From: a virus
Direction: 5' to 3' (one strand)
DNA: 62,157 nucleotides
Virus record (IMG/VR): IMGVR_UViG_3300027833_000049
Span: 1-62,157 of that record
The notes beneath the pieces are model-generated. The model ran no database searches and was not told the origin of the DNA. It saw nothing but the letters and a program-made list of their open reading frames with translations. Shown here piece by piece: positions 1,949 through 46,069 of this stretch (position 1 is the first letter of the stretch; the number at the start of each line of letters is the position of its first letter). A program made the position numbers and the translations under genes.

Positions 1949-3211
1949 ATGTATCTTTCAGAGCAAATTGAGAGCAAGTGGGCACCAGTCCTCGAGCATG
2001 CTGACCTGCAGCCTATTGCAGATCCGTACAAGAAAGCTGTTACCGCTGTAGTTCTCGAAAATCAAGAAAAAGCCCTTTTTGAAGAAAAAGGCATCATGGA
2101 AGCAACTCACGTTAACCAAACAGGTGCCGGCGTAGATAACTACGATCCAATCCTAATTAGCCTCGTCCGTCGTGCGCTTCCCAATCTAATGGCATATGAT
2201 GTTGCTGGCGTTCAGCCGATGACTGGACCTACTGGTCTTATCTTCGCCATGAAGTCACACTACACTAATATGACAGGCACTGAAGCTTTGTTCAACGAAG
2301 CTGATACTGATTTCTCAGGTGGCGGTACTCATGCTGGTTCAAACCCAGTTGATGGTACTTACACTACTGGTGCTGGCGTTGCTACTGCAACTGCTGAAGG
2401 CTTCGGTGACGGAACTACTTTGAACGAGATGGCTTTCTCAATTGAGAAGACTACTGTTACAGCTAAGTCTCGTGCATTGAAAGCTGAGTACACTGTAGAA
2501 CTCGCACAAGATCTCAAAGCAATTCATGGTCTTGACGCTGAGTCAGAGCTTTCTAACATTCTTTCACAAGAAATTCTTGCTGAAATTAACCGTGAAGTTA
2601 TTCGTACAATCTACAAAGTCGCTAAGACTGGTTCTGCATCTACTGCAACACCTGGTACTTTCGATCTTGACGTTGACTCAAACGGTCGTTGGTCAGTTGA
2701 GCGTTTCAAAGGCTTGTTGTTCAACATCGAGCGTGACGCTAACGTAATTGCACAAGATACTCGTAGAGGGAAAGGTAACTTCATTATCTGCTCTTCAGAC
2801 GTAGCATCAGCGCTTGCAATGTCAGGTGTACTTGATTACGCTCCTGCACTACAAACTAACCTCAGCGTTGACGATACTGGCAACACTTTCGCAGGTGTTC
2901 TTAACGGTCGTTACAAAGTTTATATCGATCCATACAGTGCTAACACTGGTTCAGCATCACAGTTCTACGTTGCTGGATACAAAGGTACTAGCCCTTATGA
3001 CGCAGGCATCTTCTATTGCCCATACGTTCCTTTACAAATGGTTCGTGCGATTGACCCTGAAACCTTCCAGCCTAAGATCGGCTTCAAGACTCGTTACGGC
3101 ATGGTTGCTAACCCATACGTTACACAGACTGATGGTACTACTGACGGTGATACATTCACTGCTTCACGTAACCAGTACTACAGGAAAGTCAAAGTACAAA
3201 ACTTGATGTAA
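1949..3211 (+). CDS. gp23: Major capsid protein, gp23-like
   Basis: Major head protein of the T4/cyanophage HK97-fold type, 420 residues (shorter than T4 gp23 at about 520, similar to marine relatives). The N-terminal section up to about residue 51 looks like the delta domain removed at maturation: I-M-E51 followed by Ala52 matches the gp21 cleavage rule. Downstream features shared with marine gp23 proteins include the region MAYDVAGVQPMTGPTGLIFA (about 71-90) and the C-terminal GFKTRYGMVANPY. It has its own late promoter and is followed by a strong terminator, which suits very high expression. Confidence 0.96.
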   Translation: MYLSEQIESKWAPVLEHADLQPIADPYKKAVTAVVLENQEKALFEEKGIMEATHVNQTGAGVDNYDPILISLVRRALPNLMAYDVAGVQPMTGPTGLIFAMKSHYTNMTGTEALFNEADTDFSGGGTHAGSNPVDGTYTTGAGVATATAEGFGDGTTLNEMAFSIEKTTVTAKSRALKAEYTVELAQDLKAIHGLDAESELSNILSQEILAEINREVIRTIYKVAKTGSASTATPGTFDLDVDSNGRWSVERFKGLLFNIERDANVIAQDTRRGKGNFIICSSDVASALAMSGVLDYAPALQTNLSVDDTGNTFAGVLNGRYKVYIDPYSANTGSASQFYVAGYKGTSPYDAGIFYCPYVPLQMVRAIDPETFQPKIGFKTRYGMVANPYVTQTDGTTDGDTFTASRNQYYRKVKVQNLM

Positions 3212-3253
3212 GCATCAAAAATAAAAAGAATTGCTCAAAGCAATCTATTTTGA

Positions 3254-3278
3254 AAGGGCTCTTCGGAGTCCTTTTTTT
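3254..3278 (+). terminator. Rho-independent terminator after gp23
   Basis: An eight-pair stem, AAGGGCTC and GAGTCCTT, is capped by the very stable UUCG tetraloop and followed by a run of T. It separates capsid transcription from the accessory operon downstream. Confidence 0.9.
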
Positions 3279-3333: not shown

Positions 3334-3341
3334 TATAAATA
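3334..3341 (+). promoter_or_regulatory. Late promoter box for the cytochrome/monooxygenase operon
   Basis: Exact TATAAATA followed by GTA, the same context as the capsid promoter. It is the only promoter-like signal seen before the accessory operon at 3374-6407, so the operon is predicted to be expressed late with the structural genes. Confidence 0.85.
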
Positions 3342-3373
3342 GTAAACATAAACTAAACTAACGAAGGTGCATT

Positions 3374-4660
3374 ATGAAAAAAATATTATCAATGATTACA
3401 TTCTTTGCGATAGGATTTGTTGCCGGCGGCGTCAACGGACAAACCTATACAGCAGAAGTGGCAGATATCATTAATGAAAACTGTGTAGTGTGTCATCGTC
3501 AAGGCGGCATTGGACCAATGAGCTTTGAAACATACGAGCAAGTAAGACCTTGGGCGCCGCTGATTGCTATGAAAGTAGCAAGTAGAGAAATGCCTCCTTA
3601 CGCCTATGATCATGGAATTGGTATTCAAGACCTTCAAGGCGATTGGAGACTAGCTCAACAAGATATTGATAGTATAGTAGAATGGGTAAACAGCGGATCA
3701 AAGTATGGTAATCCTGATACATTGGTAGCTTCTCCAGATTTAGGTGATACTGAAGCTTGGAGTTTCGAAGGCGACTTCGGTGCACCAGATGCAATTATTC
3801 CTTCTGTAGCAATAGACATTCCTGCAAACGGTAACGATTTATGGCACAAGCATTTAGTTCCAACAGGACTTACTGAAGATCGTTGCATTAAAGCAGTACA
3901 AGTTAAGCCACGGGGCGAAGCTAAAGCAGTCGTACATCACGCCAACTCTAATGTGGTTATTGATGGAGGCCGTGAAGGCATGCTGACCGAGTATGCTATG
4001 GGAAAATGGGGAGAGATTGTTCCAGAAGGAGTATGCAGAATTCTTCCAGGGAACGCAGAAATTAGATGGGATATTCACATGTTCCCCGGCGGACTTGGTG
4101 CGATGGCACCAGGATCAGTCATTAAAGACAACGTGGTAGAGATCGGCCTTTGGTTATACTCTGACGAAGAGAGCAAGGCACTTAAATACAAGCAAGATTT
4201 GTCGCTTTATCGCTTAGGGAATCAGGACGATCTAGTAGTTCCTCCTCATGGTTATGCAATGACTCAAGGCTTTCACAGTTTTGATCATCCAGTAAGACTA
4301 GATAGTTTTCAGCCACATGGTCACTTGCGTATGAATGCAGCAAGCCTTGAAATCTTCTACCCAGAGACTGGTCGTACTGAGCAAGTCAGTCAGATAAGCA
4401 AGTGGAGTGCAACATGGCACCACAGTCATCTATATTCGCCTGAAGCCGCTCCTTTGATTCCAGCAGGTGCAGTTATTATTCTCAAGCAATGGTATGACAA
4501 TACAGCAGAGAATCCAAATAACCCAGATCCTGATATGTATGTAATGGGCGGTTCAAGAACTGGTGATGAAATGACGCACAGCTGGTTAGCCATCACTCAT
4601 TTAGATGACGAAGGATTTTCTGAACTCAAAGCAAAACGAATGATAGCAGGCAATGACTAA
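3374..4660 (+). CDS. Secreted cytochrome c / copper type II monooxygenase fusion (first copy)
   Basis: Predicted periplasmic oxidoreductase of 428 residues. Residues 1-22 form a signal peptide with likely cleavage at VNG-QT. A mono-heme cytochrome c domain follows: CVVCH at 37-41, probable distal Met73 in REMPP. The rest resembles the copper type II ascorbate-dependent monooxygenase fold (peptidylglycine hydroxylase, dopamine hydroxylase). Candidate copper ligands are His188-His189 and His235 (CuH site) and His315-x-His317 with Met400 in GDEM (CuM site), in the same order as the PHM ligands. Hydroxylation of a small substrate, with the heme feeding electrons, is inference. Heme attachment would need the host Ccm system. 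It is first of four overlapping genes and paralogous to 5169-6407. Substrate unknown. Confidence 0.85.
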   Translation: MKKILSMITFFAIGFVAGGVNGQTYTAEVADIINENCVVCHRQGGIGPMSFETYEQVRPWAPLIAMKVASREMPPYAYDHGIGIQDLQGDWRLAQQDIDSIVEWVNSGSKYGNPDTLVASPDLGDTEAWSFEGDFGAPDAIIPSVAIDIPANGNDLWHKHLVPTGLTEDRCIKAVQVKPRGEAKAVVHHANSNVVIDGGREGMLTEYAMGKWGEIVPEGVCRILPGNAEIRWDIHMFPGGLGAMAPGSVIKDNVVEIGLWLYSDEESKALKYKQDLSLYRLGNQDDLVVPPHGYAMTQGFHSFDHPVRLDSFQPHGHLRMNAASLEIFYPETGRTEQVSQISKWSATWHHSHLYSPEAAPLIPAGAVIILKQWYDNTAENPNNPDPDMYVMGGSRTGDEMTHSWLAITHLDDEGFSELKAKRMIAGND

Positions 4661-4826
4661 AATACAATTAATATTAGCAAGTATTATTATAGCAAGTTGT
4701 ACTAGTTCTGGCTACAATGGATCGCATGAGGTCGATTGGATGCCAGATCGAGTAGTTTGGGAACAAAATATTATAGACTGTAGAAGAGCAACTGTTTGTA
4801 GAGCAGAAGATCTTTTTAAGCAGTGA
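4653..4826 (+). CDS. Small lipoprotein in the cytochrome/monooxygenase operon
   Basis: A 57-residue frame whose ATG lies inside the end of the preceding gene (8-base overlap), implying translational coupling. Residues 1-15 are hydrophobic and end in the lipobox I-A-S-C, so Cys16 is a probable lipidation site. The mature part has two further cysteines (about 44 and 50) and several Trp, Asp and Arg residues. It is too short for family assignment. Placement between a secreted monooxygenase and a secreted cytochrome suggests a membrane-anchored partner, possibly for assembly or docking; this is inference. Confidence 0.65.
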   Translation: MTKIQLILASIIIASCTSSGYNGSHEVDWMPDRVVWEQNIIDCRRATVCRAEDLFKQ

Positions 4827-4852
4827 TAAACCAATTAGGATGATAGTAGAAG

Positions 4853-5176
4853 ATGATTAAATTTATTAAAATATTAGCAGTATCAACATTTTGTATTGTT
4901 TGGACTAGCATAGCAGTTCATGCAGATGAGTTTGATTCAGTAAAAATGAAATGGAGAACCTGTGCAGCCTGTCACGGCAATGAAGCACAAGGCAAGCCAG
5001 GATTTCCTAGTCTTAACTGGATGGAAGAAGATTACATCGTAGAAGCATTGACTGACTACAAACAAATGATTACCCGTGGTGACATGAGTGGTATTATGTT
5101 TGGTCAAGCAGCAACGCTATCAGATGAGGAAGTTGTACAGATGGCAAAATATATTAAGGAACTAAAAAATGACTAG
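4853..5176 (+). CDS. Small periplasmic c-type cytochrome
   Basis: A 107-residue mono-heme class I cytochrome c. A signal peptide occupies residues 1-24 (AVHA before DEF), heme attachment is CAACH at 37-41, and a Met (78 or 82) ahead of the LSDEE helix is the probable distal ligand, as in c553-type cytochromes. It lies between the lipoprotein and the second monooxygenase and overlaps the latter by 8 bases. The likely role is shuttling electrons to or from the heme domains of the two neighbours, or into the host respiratory chain; the direction cannot be told from sequence. Confidence 0.88.
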   Translation: MIKFIKILAVSTFCIVWTSIAVHADEFDSVKMKWRTCAACHGNEAQGKPGFPSLNWMEEDYIVEALTDYKQMITRGDMSGIMFGQAATLSDEEVVQMAKYIKELKND

Positions 5177-6407
5177 ACTAAATACAGCAGTAAGTACATT
5201 TGCAATCCTAGTTTTTATGCTAGGAGCAAAAGCAGAAGCAGCAGAGATTGATTATGCAGAAAATGTAGCACCTATCTTTGTAGAGCAGTGTCAGAGCTGT
5301 CACAGAGAAGGCGGCATTGCTCCTTGGGCAATGACTGACTACAGAATGCTTCAAGCATTCGCACCTGCAATCAAAGAAGCAGTTACATCATTAAGAATGC
5401 CACCAGGACAGATTGATCGTAAGTATGCAAAGGATATCATAAATCATCGTACACTAAATGATTTAGAAATGGAAACTATTGTAGAGTGGGTCAATGCAGG
5501 AGCACCTGTAGAAGGTGACAGAGATCCACTAACAGAAACTGTTTACTCTACATCAGAGTGGGTACACGGCGAGCCTGATATGATCATTGAAGTACCTCCT
5601 ATGGAGATTCCTGCAGGTCCTTCAGCAATTCCTTATCGTTATGTCAGTGTACCCACTGGTTTAACAGAAGACAAGTGGTTGCGTGGATCGGAGTATTTGC
5701 CTTCAGAGCCTACTGTGATGCATCACATGCTAAACTCAGTCGTACTTCCTGGTAAAGGCAGTATGAATATTCTAGGCGCACAAGGTGGCGGACAAGCTGA
5801 GATGAACTTTGCGAGTGTCTCTGCTTATGTTCCAGGTGGTGATCCAGATTTTTATGACGAGAATACTGGCGGATTACTTCGTGCAGGTTCAATTGTAAAT
5901 CTACAGTTACACTACACACCAGACGGCACTGCTAGAACAGACAACGCACGAATTGGGTTGTACTTCCATGACGAAGGCGTAGTACCAGAAGAAAGAATGG
6001 CAGGCGATTGTGCTTGTATATTCCCGCAAACTTGGACACCGATTCCGCCGTACGATCCTAACTTTGTACAGACAGCAGAAGTAGTATTAAAGAACGATGT
6101 TAACTTGCACACATTCTTACCACACATGCATTTCCGTGGTAAGAGTATGAAAGCAACTGCATTCTACCCAGACGGCAGCAGTGAAGAGTTGATTGATGTT
6201 CCTGTGTACGACTATGCTTGGCAGCTTTCATATACATGGAAAGAGCCTAAGCCCTTACCCAAAGGAACTCGTTTGTTTGTAGAAGGCGCATTCGATAACT
6301 CAGTAGACAACAAGATGAACCCTGATCCAAGCGCCACTGTGATGTGGGGGCAAATGTCTGAGCAGGAAATGTTCTTCGGAGCGTTCACTTGGAAGAATGC
6401 AGAATAA
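5169..6407 (+). CDS. Secreted cytochrome c / copper type II monooxygenase fusion (second copy)
   Basis: Paralogue of 3374-4660, 412 residues. Signal peptide 1-25, heme motif CQSCH at 41-45 with probable distal Met77 in RMPPG. The copper monooxygenase region has His185-His186 and His248 in LQLHY (CuH-type), then His319-x-His321 in LPHMHFRG and Met401 in EQEM (CuM-type). All six candidate copper ligands are kept, so the enzyme looks active. It resembles bacterial fusions of this architecture more closely than the first copy does, mainly around LQLHYTPDG. The two copies diverge strongly outside the motifs, suggesting different substrates or a heteromeric complex rather than a recent duplication. 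Last gene of the operon. Confidence 0.87.
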   Translation: MTRLNTAVSTFAILVFMLGAKAEAAEIDYAENVAPIFVEQCQSCHREGGIAPWAMTDYRMLQAFAPAIKEAVTSLRMPPGQIDRKYAKDIINHRTLNDLEMETIVEWVNAGAPVEGDRDPLTETVYSTSEWVHGEPDMIIEVPPMEIPAGPSAIPYRYVSVPTGLTEDKWLRGSEYLPSEPTVMHHMLNSVVLPGKGSMNILGAQGGGQAEMNFASVSAYVPGGDPDFYDENTGGLLRAGSIVNLQLHYTPDGTARTDNARIGLYFHDEGVVPEERMAGDCACIFPQTWTPIPPYDPNFVQTAEVVLKNDVNLHTFLPHMHFRGKSMKATAFYPDGSSEELIDVPVYDYAWQLSYTWKEPKPLPKGTRLFVEGAFDNSVDNKMNPDPSATVMWGQMSEQEMFFGAFTWKNAE

Positions 6408-6415
6408 GTTATTTT

Positions 6416-6423
6416 TATAAATA
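6416..6423 (+). promoter_or_regulatory. Late promoter box for homing endonuclease gene
   Basis: Exact TATAAATA followed by GTA, just after the stop of the second monooxygenase. Predicted transcription start near 6429, immediately before a long hairpin. Confidence 0.83.
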
Positions 6424-6495: not shown

Positions 6496-7119
6496 ATGTC
6501 TACTACTACTTATAACATTGTATATAAGACTACCAACCTTGTCAATAACAAAATATATATTGGCGTCCATTCTACCAATGATCTTGATGACGGCTACTTC
6601 GGATCTGGTACTGCATTAAAATACTCTATAGAAAAACATGGTATAGATAATTTCTCTCGTGAAATATTATATTTCTTTGCCACAGCAGACGAAGCCTACG
6701 CTAAAGAAAAACAGCTAGTCACTGAATCTTTTGTTTCTCGGCAAGATAATTATAATATGAAGCCAGGAGGTTATGGCGGATTCAATTCCCCTACAAAAGA
6801 ACAACGAAGAGCAATTTCAATTCGGGTGTCCGGCGAAAATAATCCAATGTATGGCCAAGGCGAGAAACTTCTTGGTGAAAAGAATGGGATGTTCGGAGCA
6901 GATAGACCTGACGAATGGTGTAAACAGCACTCATCATTTATGAAAGGCAATAAAAATGCCGTGGGAGCAAACTGGTCAGAAGAAGCTAGAAAGAAAAAAT
7001 CTGAGCAGATGAAAAAAGTTGTAAAGAAACGAGCTGCCTGCATCAAGTGTCACAAAGAAATCACAATACAAAATTTAGGTAGGCACTACGCAACTCATAA
7101 TAATTTGACAATAGAGTAA
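6496..7119 (+). CDS. GIY-YIG homing endonuclease
   Basis: A 207-residue free-standing homing endonuclease. The N-terminal GIY-YIG core is visible as IVY (8-10) and YIG (21-23), followed by GSG and a conserved Arg/Glu region. Two NUMOD3-like DNA-binding repeats (NNPMYG and NGMFG, about 110-135) follow. The C terminus carries a CxxC...H...H zinc-finger-like motif (CIKC, then HYATH). Such genes spread by cutting genomes that lack them and drag flanking DNA with them. This one sits exactly between the accessory operon and the tail tube gene. It has its own late promoter. Confidence 0.9.
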   Translation: MSTTTYNIVYKTTNLVNNKIYIGVHSTNDLDDGYFGSGTALKYSIEKHGIDNFSREILYFFATADEAYAKEKQLVTESFVSRQDNYNMKPGGYGGFNSPTKEQRRAISIRVSGENNPMYGQGEKLLGEKNGMFGADRPDEWCKQHSSFMKGNKNAVGANWSEEARKKKSEQMKKVVKKRAACIKCHKEITIQNLGRHYATHNNLTIE

Positions 7120-7392: not shown

Positions 7393-7974
7393 ATGGTAAA
7401 CGTTTTAGCAAATGTAACAGAATCAACATGGGACGCTAGTAACCCTGGTGAATTAGACTATCTAAAGCCTAATGGTTTTAAGTTTAAGATTCACAATTTA
7501 CCTAGTGTCTCATTCTTTTGTCAGTCTGCAAACATTCCAGATGTTTCAATGGGATCTCCCCAAGTTGCTACACCTCTTGTTGATTATTATCAGCCAGGAG
7601 ATAAGCTTGCCTATGGTGAGCTAAATATTCGTTTTCTTATTCAAGAAAATATGAACAACTATAATGAAATATATGAATGGCTAGTCGGACTAGGCTTCCC
7701 AGAAAGTCATAAACAATATACTGATTTTTCTAATAGTCAGTCATATCGCTTCCCTACCATAAACCCATCAAAGCAAAGATCGCTCGGCAACTTTAGCGAT
7801 GCATCTTTGTTTATTCTTGATTCAAATAATAATACAATAAAAACAATAGTGTTTCAAGATGCGTTTCCGGTTTCTCTTAGTGGTCTTGAGTTTGAGATAA
7901 GTTCCGGTAGCACTGAATATTTTCAAGGAGTTGCTGCGTTTAGATACAGACAGTACAAGATTACAACGCCATAA
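7393..7974 (+). CDS. gp19: Tail tube protein, gp19-like
   Basis: A 193-residue protein matching the T4/cyanophage gp19 tail tube family in length and layout: an N-terminal KPNGFKFKIHNLPSVSFFCQ stretch, the motif SANIPDVSMG, a central NIRFLIQENMNNYNEIYEWL helix region, and a C-terminal beta strand FRYRQYKI. Stacked hexamers form the inner tube through which DNA and ejected proteins pass. It has its own late promoter. The neighbouring sheath gene (18) of T4 is not in this window. Confidence 0.93.
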   Translation: MVNVLANVTESTWDASNPGELDYLKPNGFKFKIHNLPSVSFFCQSANIPDVSMGSPQVATPLVDYYQPGDKLAYGELNIRFLIQENMNNYNEIYEWLVGLGFPESHKQYTDFSNSQSYRFPTINPSKQRSLGNFSDASLFILDSNNNTIKTIVFQDAFPVSLSGLEFEISSGSTEYFQGVAAFRYRQYKITTP

Positions 7975-42955: not shown

Positions 42956-43590
42956 TGGCTGACAAGCATATGGTATTCTCATTCGGCAGGATGTCTCCTC
43001 CGACGGCAGGACACAGTAAAGTTGTGGATCATGTTACTAATACTGCCTCTAAACTAGGTGCGGATCATCGGGTTATTGTAAGTCATTCACAAGACAAGAA
43101 TAAGAACCCGCTACACCCACAGCATAAAGTAGATTATTTGAAGCATGTTCACCCGACTGCAAACGTTGAATCCTCTTCTAAAGAGCATCCTCATTTTATG
43201 GCACATCTAGCTAAGATGCACAAGGAGGGCTACTCCCATGTTACAATGGTAGCAGGATCTGATAGAGTAGGAGAGTTTCAAAAATTAGCTGATAAATACA
43301 ATGGTCCGAACGGCAGTTATAACTTTAAACATTTGAAAGTAGTATCAGCAGGACATAGAGATCCTGATGCAGAAGGTACTGCTGGAATCAGTGGTACTAA
43401 GATGCGTTCACACGCTGGTAATAACGATTATAAATCATTTAAGTCAGGGTTGCATCCTAATGCATCTGACGAACATGCGAAGAAATTATTTACTGCAACT
43501 CGCACTGGTATGGGTTTACATAAAGAACAAACAAGATTATCTTTTGGAGCATTTTTGAATGAACATAGAAGAAGTATACACTCAACTTAA
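42955..43590 (+). CDS. Cytidylyltransferase-fold nucleotidyltransferase
   Basis: A 211-residue protein of the HxGH nucleotidyltransferase superfamily. FSFGRMSPPTAGHSKVV (about 8-24) holds the T-x-G-H motif, and ISGTKMRS (about 145-152) is the equivalent of the ISSTxxR motif. NMN adenylyltransferase-like chemistry is likely, substrate unknown. The C terminus ends LSFGAFLNE, a FxxFLxE motif like the N termini of the neighbouring candidate head proteins. It is co-translated with the ligase-like protein and overlaps lysozyme by 32 bases. Confidence 0.8.
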   Translation: MADKHMVFSFGRMSPPTAGHSKVVDHVTNTASKLGADHRVIVSHSQDKNKNPLHPQHKVDYLKHVHPTANVESSSKEHPHFMAHLAKMHKEGYSHVTMVAGSDRVGEFQKLADKYNGPNGSYNFKHLKVVSAGHRDPDAEGTAGISGTKMRSHAGNNDYKSFKSGLHPNASDEHAKKLFTATRTGMGLHKEQTRLSFGAFLNEHRRSIHST

Positions 43591-44017
43591 AATTGACGAA
43601 GGTGTTAGATATAAAATTTATGCAGACCATTTAGGTCTAGCCACTTTCGGCATTGGGCATCTAGTAATAGCAAGTGACCCTGAATATGGTCAACCTTTGG
43701 GTACAGAGGTATCCGAAGATAGAGTGCGTGAATGTTTTGAGAGAGATTTAGACACATCTATATCAGAGTGCGGTGTACTATACGGCAAAGAAGAATTTGG
43801 TGCATTTCCAGAAGAAGTACAGCAAGTCCTAGTTAACATGATGTTTAACATGGGGCGTCCTCGTCTTACTCAATTTAAGAAATTCAATGCTCATATTCTT
43901 GCTCGAAACTGGTTAAGAGCCGCACATGAAGGCAGAGACTCTAAGTGGCATAGGCAAGTTAATAATAGAGCAGAAAGATTAATGATGAGATTAGATGTAT
44001 TGAAGGGAGTAGAATAA
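43559..44017 (+). CDS. T4-type lysozyme (GH24 muramidase)
   Basis: A 152-residue peptidoglycan hydrolase. The catalytic triad Glu14, Asp23 and Thr29 has exactly the T4 lysozyme spacing (Glu11, Asp20, Thr26), in IDEGVRYKIYADHLGLATFGIGH. QQVLVNMMFNMG is the conserved substrate-cleft helix. No signal peptide, so release to the periplasm needs a holin. Starts inside the end of the nucleotidyltransferase gene and shares a base with the lipase start. Confidence 0.94.
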   Translation: MNIEEVYTQLKIDEGVRYKIYADHLGLATFGIGHLVIASDPEYGQPLGTEVSEDRVRECFERDLDTSISECGVLYGKEEFGAFPEEVQQVLVNMMFNMGRPRLTQFKKFNAHILARNWLRAAHEGRDSKWHRQVNNRAERLMMRLDVLKGVE

Positions 44018-44733
44018 TGTTATCAACTGAGTTTTATGCACATGCTTGTATTGCAGAGCTTGCATACAAAGACATAGATAAAGATGTCAGAAAAGAATTT
44101 AAAGCCCTAGGATTTACTTCGATAAAGTTTATAGATATTGATGGCGCTCAAGCATATGTTCTAAGCAACAAAGAAAGAATCACTGTCGCATTTCGTGGAA
44201 CTGAAGCGACTGAAAAAAGTGATATATACGCAGACTTAGAAATCACGCACGAAAAAGGATTTCACGAAGGATTCTACGAAGAGTACGAGAAACTAGAATT
44301 AGCAGTGCATGGTGAAGTTTCTAAACTCAGAGGACGAAAGAAGCGTCCAGTATATGTAACTGGTCATAGTTTAGGAGCAGCTATTGCTTCTATTTTCTGC
44401 TTTAATTATCACGAAGCAGTAGCATTATATACATTTGGTTGTCCTAGAAACGCATCTTGGTCAAAGTCTAAAGAACTTAAAGTACCACATTATAGATGTG
44501 TAAACAACAATGATATAGTACCTAAGATGCCACCTGCTATCTTGAACTATAGACATCACGGTGAATTGCATTACATCAATTTTTATGGTAATGTCCGTGT
44601 ATTGACTTGGTGGCAAAGGTTTAAAGATTCTTGGCGTGGCCGAAGGGCGGCGTGGAGAAATAAAGATAAGTTTGACGGTATCAGTGATCACGGTATGACT
44701 GAATATTGCAGATGTTTAGAAGACAATAAATAA
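44017..44733 (+). CDS. Class 3 lipase
   Basis: A 238-residue alpha/beta hydrolase. Catalytic Ser118 is in VTGHSLGAA, Asp166 in VNNNDIVPK and His225 in SDHGMTEY. VAFRGTE (57-63) supplies the oxyanion region characteristic of class 3 lipases. No signal peptide. Its overlap with lysozyme (TAATG) points to a role in host lysis, perhaps attacking membrane lipids after the holin step. Confidence 0.9.
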   Translation: MLSTEFYAHACIAELAYKDIDKDVRKEFKALGFTSIKFIDIDGAQAYVLSNKERITVAFRGTEATEKSDIYADLEITHEKGFHEGFYEEYEKLELAVHGEVSKLRGRKKRPVYVTGHSLGAAIASIFCFNYHEAVALYTFGCPRNASWSKSKELKVPHYRCVNNNDIVPKMPPAILNYRHHGELHYINFYGNVRVLTWWQRFKDSWRGRRAAWRNKDKFDGISDHGMTEYCRCLEDNK

Positions 44734-44750
44734 AAAAAGGAGATTGCTAA

Positions 44751-45032
44751 ATGTGGTTCTTGTTACTTAAAGCAGCTTTTACTGGTATATTTGGATCAGC
44801 ATTTGGCAAATGGTTTTTAACAACTCGTATGGGCAGATGGTTTCAAGATAAACTTAATGCCTATATGCAATACTTAGCAGTTAAATATGATATAAAAGTA
44901 GCTAAAAGAGAAGCTAAGTGGAAATCAGAATATCCTGGATTGGTAAAACGATTAGATGATATGGAAAAGGAAATAAAAACAATAAAAAAAGCCTCATCGG
45001 GAGTAAAGAGAGTCCCTAGGAAGAAAGCATGA
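44751..45032 (+). CDS. Membrane-anchored basic protein
   Basis: A 93-residue protein with one N-terminal membrane span (about 2-24), then a basic region and a coiled-coil-like helix ending in KKASSGVKRVPRKKA. Conserved in marine T4-like phages as far as its MWFLLLKAAFTGIFG start suggests. Position in the lysis block makes a holin or antiholin role possible. Preceded by AAGGAGA. Confidence 0.68.
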   Translation: MWFLLLKAAFTGIFGSAFGKWFLTTRMGRWFQDKLNAYMQYLAVKYDIKVAKREAKWKSEYPGLVKRLDDMEKEIKTIKKASSGVKRVPRKKA

Positions 45033-45331
45033 AGACATTTAGCGAATGGTTAGAAGAAGAAAGAGGGTCAGATTCAGATGGTCATAAACGATCTACTGAG
45101 TCAGGCGCTGGATTGACAAAGAAAGGAGTCGCTGCACATCGCAGGGCTAATCCTGGTTCTAAACTACAAACTGCTGTGACTACGCCTCCTAGTAAACTAA
45201 AAAAGGGCAGTAAAGCAGCTAAACGCCGCAAATCTTTTTGCGCTAGAATGTCTGGTATGAAAGGTCCTATGAAAGATGAGAAGGGTCGCCCAACTCGTAA
45301 GGCTATGTCATTGAGACGGTGGAACTGCTGA
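45029..45331 (+). CDS. Basic head-protein candidate with capsid-targeting-like N terminus
   Basis: A 100-residue, Lys/Arg-rich protein that starts MKTFSEWLEEE, resembling T4 internal protein targeting sequences. The rest (LTKKGVAAHRRANPGSKLQT, SFCARMSGMKGPMKDEKGRP) is a strongly conserved cyanophage-type family (DUF6321-like) of unknown function. Basic charge is suited to packing with DNA. Overlaps the preceding gene by 4 bases. Confidence 0.75.
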   Translation: MKTFSEWLEEERGSDSDGHKRSTESGAGLTKKGVAAHRRANPGSKLQTAVTTPPSKLKKGSKAAKRRKSFCARMSGMKGPMKDEKGRPTRKAMSLRRWNC

Positions 45332-45720
45332 TGAAAATTGCATTATTCTTCTTTCTAATTATGTGTGGTATGGGCGCTGTCGGATACTTTTACTACAACG
45401 ACACGCAAGATAGATTGGCGCAACTCAGAGAGAATAATACTAGACTTGAAATTGCTGCACAGACTAGCCAAGAAACAATTGGCCGAATGCAAGCAGATGC
45501 TACACAGTTTGCAGAAGCTAATACAAAACTGCGAGAAGAACTTGATGAGGCAGAAGAATACTCAGACGACCTCGCAAGTAAATTGAGAAGACATAATCTA
45601 ACTGTCCTGACTTTACAAAAACCAGGCCTTATTGAAACGAGAGTGAACAATGCAACAGCAAAGTTATTTGATGAAATGGAAAACATTACGGGTAAGTCTG
45701 CTCCTGCTACTGCTGAGTAG
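45331..45720 (+). CDS. Inner-membrane spanin (Rz-like)
   Basis: A 129-residue protein with an N-terminal span (about 2-20), a long periplasmic coiled coil rich in Gln, Glu and Leu (about 25-90) and a polar tail. An outer-membrane spanin gene starts inside it in another frame, the classic Rz/Rz1 nesting. The ATG at 45331 overlaps the upstream TGA. Confidence 0.78.
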   Translation: MKIALFFFLIMCGMGAVGYFYYNDTQDRLAQLRENNTRLEIAAQTSQETIGRMQADATQFAEANTKLREELDEAEEYSDDLASKLRRHNLTVLTLQKPGLIETRVNNATAKLFDEMENITGKSAPATAE

Positions 45721-46069
45721 TACGACCGCCTGTTCTCTATTTCCTTCACGCAAACCTGAAGAAGTTGTAATAACTCAGGTAGAATATGTAGAAAGGACTA
45801 TTCCTACACAACCTCGTCCTAAGCCTGTATCTCTATATGACATAGAGTTTTATGCTGTCACAGAAGAAAACCTAGATGAGTTTTTGGACAGATTTGAAAA
45901 AGAAAACGGCGACATAGTATTCTTTGCTATCAGTGTTCCTGATTACGAAAACATATCACTAAATATGGGTGAGTTAAGACGATTTATAGAACAACAAAAA
46001 TCTATCATTCTATACTACGAAGAGAATGTGAAACCGAGAGAAGCGGAAGGGACTGATGAAAACATTTAA
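45650..46069 (+). CDS. Outer-membrane spanin-like lipoprotein (Rz1-like)
   Basis: A 139-residue lipoprotein candidate. A hydrophobic leader (17-22 all Leu) ends at S-S-T-T-A-Cys28, a slightly unusual lipobox. The mature part is Pro-rich near its start (TIPTQPRPKP). The gene overlaps the inner spanin by 71 bases in a different frame. Together they are predicted to fuse the two membranes in the last lysis step. The ATG at 45671 is a less likely alternative start. Confidence 0.75.
   Translation: MQQQSYLMKWKTLRVSLLLLLLSSTTACSLFPSRKPEEVVITQVEYVERTIPTQPRPKPVSLYDIEFYAVTEENLDEFLDRFEKENGDIVFFAISVPDYENISLNMGELRRFIEQQKSIILYYEENVKPREAEGTDENI

Follow-up and report, generated by a model that had tools for sequence, protein, structure and literature searches.

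Among the closest described systems to the locus reported here are the pmoC-phages, which are proposed to boost host oxidation with a copper monooxygenase gene of the host (Chen et al. 2020, PMC7674155). Since phage copper monooxygenase subunits have thus been described, this kind of system is already known. Our locus is like these phages and the amoC viruses in that large phages carry a host copper monooxygenase gene, but PmoC is one membrane subunit of unrelated fold, whereas the cassette encodes complete enzymes of soluble type that carry heme themselves, and in addition a cytochrome, arranged as a T4-like late operon. With the PHM/DBH class (PF01082/PF03712; PDB 1opm, 4zel) the two large proteins of the cassette, CopA and CopB, share a predicted two-domain fold and the ligand order HH, H, HxH, M at similar spacing, yet they are only 9-17% identical to these enzymes and add an N-terminal c-type heme domain, all of it phage-encoded. 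Heme-copper monooxygenases of Pseudohongiella's family have the matching architecture, being 66-84% identical to CopA and 45-54% identical to CopB over the heme-copper part; they differ in that the bacterial CopB relatives mostly have an AhpC/redoxin domain and that relatives of the phage cytochrome and lipoprotein were not found there. Methylophilales phage Melnitz and Pelagibacter phage HTVC008M share the order gp21-gp22-gp23-gp19-like-UvsY-UvsW and have a gp23 about 67-68% identical, but their gp23/gp19-like site is without the cassette. An earlier note on this DNA knew of no described phage system of the kind, and in the open-access literature searched we found no description of phage-borne PHM-like or PF03712 genes; no phage in that literature is described as encoding a full pair of PHM/DBH-like enzymes that bear heme domains, plus a cytochrome.

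A four-gene insertion behind gp23

The window, that is, the whole stretch of DNA analysed, is a 62,157-base IMG/VR virus record with a T4-type head run (protease gp21, scaffold gp22, capsid gp23). Together with UvsY, UvsW, gp55 and late promoters, this run places the phage among T4-like/Kyanoviridae-type phages. The features of the locus are as follows; CopA and CopB are working names coined for this analysis.

1949..3211, + strand: gp23 major capsid protein (PF07068, 1.4e-141), upstream anchor of the insertion site
3252..3275, + strand: hairpin resembling a terminator, followed by a T-run and separating gp23 from the cassette (fold -13.4 kcal/mol, z -2.99)
3334..3341, + strand: T4-type late promoter motif TATAAATA, conserved 5' of CopA in other contigs
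3374..4660, + strand: CopA, 428 aa; signal-like segment, c-type heme domain, PHM/DBH-like copper monooxygenase
4653..4826, + strand: small lipoprotein, 57 aa, of an independent phage family; lipobox Cys, invariant N, CR, C and LF
4853..5176, + strand: mono-heme c-type cytochrome, 107 aa, probable electron carrier (Pfam Cytochrom_C, 2.7e-8)
5169..6407, + strand: CopB, 412 aa; signal-like segment, c-type heme domain, PHM/DBH-like copper monooxygenase, without the redoxin domain of bacterial relatives
6416..6423, + strand: late promoter motif of the following endonuclease gene
6496..7119, + strand: GIY-YIG/NUMOD3 homing endonuclease, a variable neighbour outside the cassette
7393..7974, + strand: gp19-like tail protein (phrog_45, 1.5e-33), downstream anchor of the insertion site

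All four consecutive genes of the earlier note are present as ORFs, and its description of them as mostly overlapping fits two of the three junctions (8 bases each), while a 26-base gap separates lipoprotein from cytochrome. Of the flanks it named, gp23 lies directly upstream, but the endonuclease precedes the gp19-like gene; this endonuclease is missing from the corresponding place in L082 and other contigs. In Melnitz and HTVC008M, both cultured relatives, gp23 is followed by the gp19-like gene and the cassette is missing, which indicates that the cassette is an insertion at a defined site.

The late promoter motif occurs 15 times in the window against 6.05 expected, a number that no shuffle reached. 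It lies 40 bases 5' of CopA and recurs about 33-48 bases upstream of CopA in many other contigs, in agreement with the late promoter proposed ahead of the four genes. At the place of the terminator proposed to separate them from gp23, a hairpin folds and is followed by T, although a simple terminator scan did not list it.

Heme and copper domains

On profile comparison CopA and CopB are paralogues (probability 100, E 2e-53; 29% identity). The heme motifs were located at CopA 37-41 (CVVCH), CopB 41-45 (CQSCH) and cytochrome 37-41 (CAACH), and, in line with the signal peptides of the earlier note, the N-terminal segments before them are signal-like as judged by eye rather than by a predictor. 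After the heme c motif, CopA and CopB have an invariant Met in an MPP motif (M73 and M77), which is a likely sixth heme ligand. The candidate copper ligands are HH188/189, H235, H315xH317 and M400 in CopA and HH185/186, H248, H319xH321 and M401 in CopB, the CuH site of three His and the CuM site of two His and a Met being assigned by alignment order and spacing and not from a metal-bound structure. In the alignment this is the ligand order of the PHM/DBH class, whose motif is HH, H, HxH and M, the Met standing in 'EM', at similar spacing. All heme and copper ligands are kept in 45/45 aligned viral CopA, and each ligand in 72-74 of the 74 sequences in the set of CopB and its bacterial relatives, which argues that the motif set is not due to chance and bears out the complete CuH/CuM sets claimed for both large proteins. 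Median dN/dS values of 0.09 and 0.11 (about 0.1) indicate that the cassette enzymes are kept functional.

The predicted structures point the same way. The AlphaFold model of CopB has a pLDDT of 83 and that of CopA a mean of 65 overall, poor in the heme region; Foldseek against the PDB placed PHM/DBH first for both (E 5e-10 for CopB and 8.5e-10 for CopA, probability 1.00), with TM (target) for the PHM matches of 0.51-0.63 and 0.38-0.47, respectively. The models thus have the paired jelly-roll copper-domain fold of the class, and these first matches, along with the ligand alignment, agree with the heme plus copper oxygenase architecture that had been proposed. Comparison with copper monooxygenase HMMs divided. 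Both window proteins fall short of the curated Pfam cut-off, CopB matching PF03712 at 13.7 bits (cut-off 23) and CopA matching neither PF01082 nor PF03712, but 65/74 CopB relatives match PF03712 at E<=1 (best 2.4e-8). We consider that these relatives and the fold comparison outweigh the weak direct match, and on their predicted folds CopA and CopB are PHM-like, without being filed as Pfam members. Sequence searches of the PDB returned nothing for CopA or CopB singly and only heme-domain matches for the CopB profile, and NCBIfam and PHROGs gave nothing useful for either.

The cytochrome, with its CxxCH motif and 35.5 bits to Pfam Cytochrom_C (cut-off 21.3), is of class I c-type and adjoins CopA and/or CopB in 13/13 viral loci found; it is probably an electron carrier. 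The lipoprotein, which the earlier note had counted with the redox proteins, is different: a redox motif is absent, and in the 61-62 loci where it was found it lies beside CopA/CopB in 33/61 and occurs in 28/61 without them in the stretch read, some of these at the same gp23-gp19 site. These 28 loci weaken its standing as a conserved partner of CopA. As it is so often apart from CopA/CopB, it is not to be counted as a redox component; it is a separate phage family. That family, with invariant N, CR, C and LF near the C-terminus, extends across large marine phages (L301, L316, L318, L283, L333), and none was found in the cultured phages searched.

Spread among phages and bacterial kinship

Stretches matching in IMG/VR numbered 266 for CopA and 101 for CopB, in searches built on patterns of the window proteins and thereby biased to close relatives. 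IMG/VR records of 20-340 kb, scanned whole, had the family in 50/50, CopB being present in 37 and CopA alone in 13; since the contigs overlap in origin (L032, L033, L035 and L036, for instance, seem to belong to a single virus), these are not counted as 50 independent viruses. Several of the larger cassette records have a gp23 homologue. The cassette occurs in about 13 genomic settings by comparison of neighbours, among them 3' of gp23, near a lysozyme-lipase-holin-like group, by heat-shock-like genes and, in a 340-kb phage, by curli genes. The gene order next to gp23 was found in other viral contigs: with duplicates and the window's own loci excluded, the gp23-CopA junction recurs in 19, the CopB-gp19 junction in 20 and the two together in 8. 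These junctions and the G+C of the cassette (0.44, against 0.45 for gp23 and 0.47-0.58 for bacterial loci) show that it is neither confined to one assembly nor chimeric, which the earlier note had named as a concern. The chance of an assembly chimera or bacterial contamination is therefore negligible in our view, for although the genes are host-like and one bacterial MAG contig (L153) has phage-type CopA/CopB, identical junctions recur in many independent contigs, the G+C is phage-like and L153 is nested inside a CopB clade that is phage-only.

Neither CopA nor CopB was found in the cultured phages of the collection, and plasmids searched with host CopA gave none. Scans with exact peptide patterns, which are insensitive, gave no match in phages for a host paralogue of 50% identity and found the redoxin-fused form in one phage contig only. 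A sister strain of the window phage, L353:312-2487 (IMGVR_UViG_3300009505_002046), whose downstream genes are nearly identical, has at the corresponding site a redoxin-heme-copper fusion in CopB's place and a separate redoxin. This is a recent natural cassette swap in which the redox theme is retained.

The surroundings of the cassette hold several further genes. A 340-kb T4-like jumbo phage has a secretion set of the curli type directly 5' of CopA (L032:3498-7355), made up of CsgG (1.4e-45), a protein with a FecR domain and one with curlin repeats; by Pfam match, the same record has a fusion of a CHASE2 sensor with an adenylate/guanylate cyclase beside the cassette (L032:11141-13213), and a CHASE2-cyclase fusion, judged by eye, is upstream of CopA in L075. 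In a 230-kb phage contig (L045:9262-12328), NifU-like, TauD/TfdA-like dioxygenase and Vut_1 transporter genes follow 3' of CopA. The lysis group of the window itself (43559-46069) comprises a phage lysozyme, a class 3 lipase (1.5e-18), a small holin-like protein and an overlapping i-spanin/o-spanin-like pair, and relatives of these lysis genes adjoin CopA-CopB in other phages.

Kinship with bacterial heme-copper fusions, which the earlier note had suggested, is close. CopA was found at E<=1e-60 in 106/137 genomes of one gammaproteobacterial family, often in multiple copies; bacterial CopA is 66-84% identical to phage CopA, the host orthologues 79-84%. The family's name is drawn from one Pseudohongiella sp. 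MAG placed in it. CopB relatives occur in genomes of gammaproteobacteria, Saprospiraceae, Verrucomicrobia and acidobacteria. In a CopA tree made by a quick method, phage sequences are nested among bacterial ones with at least 3 label changes on starred branches, which indicates more than one host-to-phage transfer and repeated recruitment of one subgroup. In the CopB tree every phage sequence falls into one clade on a long stem, and the bacterial relatives mostly begin with an AhpC/redoxin domain, which phage CopB lacks. By these trees, phage CopB forms a single phage-specific clade from which the host redoxin domain has been lost, and the two proteins differ in history, CopA having been recruited repeatedly and CopB being a single phage lineage. 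As expected of a phage auxiliary metabolic gene, the genes are akin to a host metabolic gene and lie in a genuine phage genome. Close relatives of the two small proteins were not found in the candidate donor family, the search for the cytochrome giving an empty answer over 15 genomes with no positive control and that for the lipoprotein only marginal matches.

Bacterial CopA orthologues, often in tandem, lie beside an MFS transporter, a divergently placed redoxin-heme-copper protein and a periplasmic protein that is conserved but unknown, so that the locus looks like one for substrate use; CopA and phage-type CopB were non-adjacent in the bacterial loci read. In the family of L219, L258, L260 and G147 the heme-copper monooxygenases have expanded hugely, a first look giving as many as about 40 candidate places in one genome, and no paper found names the substrate of this expansion. 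In a study of North Sea Gammaproteobacteria, HTCC2089 and Pseudohongiellaceae are treated as sister families that have been little studied, and HTCC2089 is described as rich in oxygenase genes; copper is unmentioned in the text of that study (PMC8371827). From gene kinship, the hosts are probably marine gammaproteobacteria of Pseudohongiella's family; a CRISPR or prophage link between phage and host family was looked for and none found. Phage contigs in MAGs were rejected as such a link: contigs C22 and C57 of G270, a MAG of the candidate host family, are T4-like phages (L358, L359) that have gp23 and no cassette, and they are probably mis-binned. The MAG contig L153, in which bacterial genes occupy one end while a partial phage-clade CopA and CopB occupy the other, is a chimera or a phage-derived insertion, its nesting among phage CopB ruling it out as a bacterial copy.

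Proposed role in infection

We favour, with moderate confidence, a role as an auxiliary metabolic cassette that hydroxylates a host substrate in the periplasm late in infection. The phage would make the cassette proteins late, from the T4 late promoter, and the Sec and Ccm systems of the host would export and mature CopA, CopB and the small cytochrome c, which probably takes electrons of the host respiratory chain to CopA/CopB; alternatively, the host chain may reduce the fused hemes. The N-terminal c-type heme domains, replacing ascorbate, would then probably feed electrons to the two-copper PHM/DBH-like domain, which would hydroxylate a C-H bond in a small periplasmic substrate by means of O2. 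By adding copies of one orthologous host subgroup, the phage may let host oxidation, as a supply of nutrients, carbon or energy, continue while the host is dismantled and particles are assembled. The genes would derive from, and probably act in, gammaproteobacteria of Pseudohongiella's family, which have many paralogues.

A related possibility, which we regard as unlikely, is that the repeatedly recruited CopA, the phage-evolved CopB without redoxin and the phage-specific cytochrome c form a dedicated donor/oxygenase complex, confined to phages, for a reaction foreign to the host. Late timing suits envelope modification as well as metabolism, and the oxygenases may instead hydroxylate a surface or periplasmic host molecule (a receptor, lipid or peptide), barring further or rival phages. 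The late promoter, the signal-like N-termini, the presence of the cassette in many different large phages and the small lipoprotein beside CopA/CopB in 33/61 of its loci are consistent with such superinfection exclusion; nevertheless, CopA is nearly a copy of a multicopy host gene whose loci, with their MFS transporter, look metabolic, and the lipoprotein is also found without CopA, so that we hold this explanation to be rather improbable. Slightly less probable again is an electron and oxygen sink, in which the cytochrome and heme-copper proteins would drain respiratory-chain electrons to O2, so that the redox state or the membrane potential shifts before the cell lyses, with hydroxylation only secondary; both this and envelope modification are live competitors of the metabolic reading. 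An extra cytochrome c, up to three heme proteins, the redoxin-heme-copper protein and second redoxin of L353 at the corresponding site, and the nearness of CopA-CopB to lysis genes (lysozyme, lipase) in some contigs could be read in this way, but the complete PHM-like ligand set under strong purifying selection implies substrate-coupled catalysis, and the remaining settings are away from lysis genes. The virion location that the earlier note had allowed, with proteins on or in the particle acting at entry, is very unlikely: although the genes lie between capsid and tail genes that have late promoters, the signal-like N-termini and host-type periplasmic nature of the proteins argue against packaging, c-type heme requires periplasmic maturation, and the pair is away from gp23 and gp19 in other phages.

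CopA and CopB would be the first PHM/DBH-type copper monooxygenases described in phages, as far as the open-access literature searched goes, and they occur in a widespread marine virus group as part of an unusual heme-copper redox cassette of several genes. The kinship points to little-studied marine gammaproteobacteria as hosts of many orphan T4-like contigs, and it makes testable which periplasmic oxidation merits upkeep during infection. For the study of auxiliary genes the pair is of interest as a phylogenetic contrast between a partner repeatedly derived from hosts and one that is a single phage lineage, and the cassette suggests that phages run an O2-using reaction in the periplasm of the dying host.
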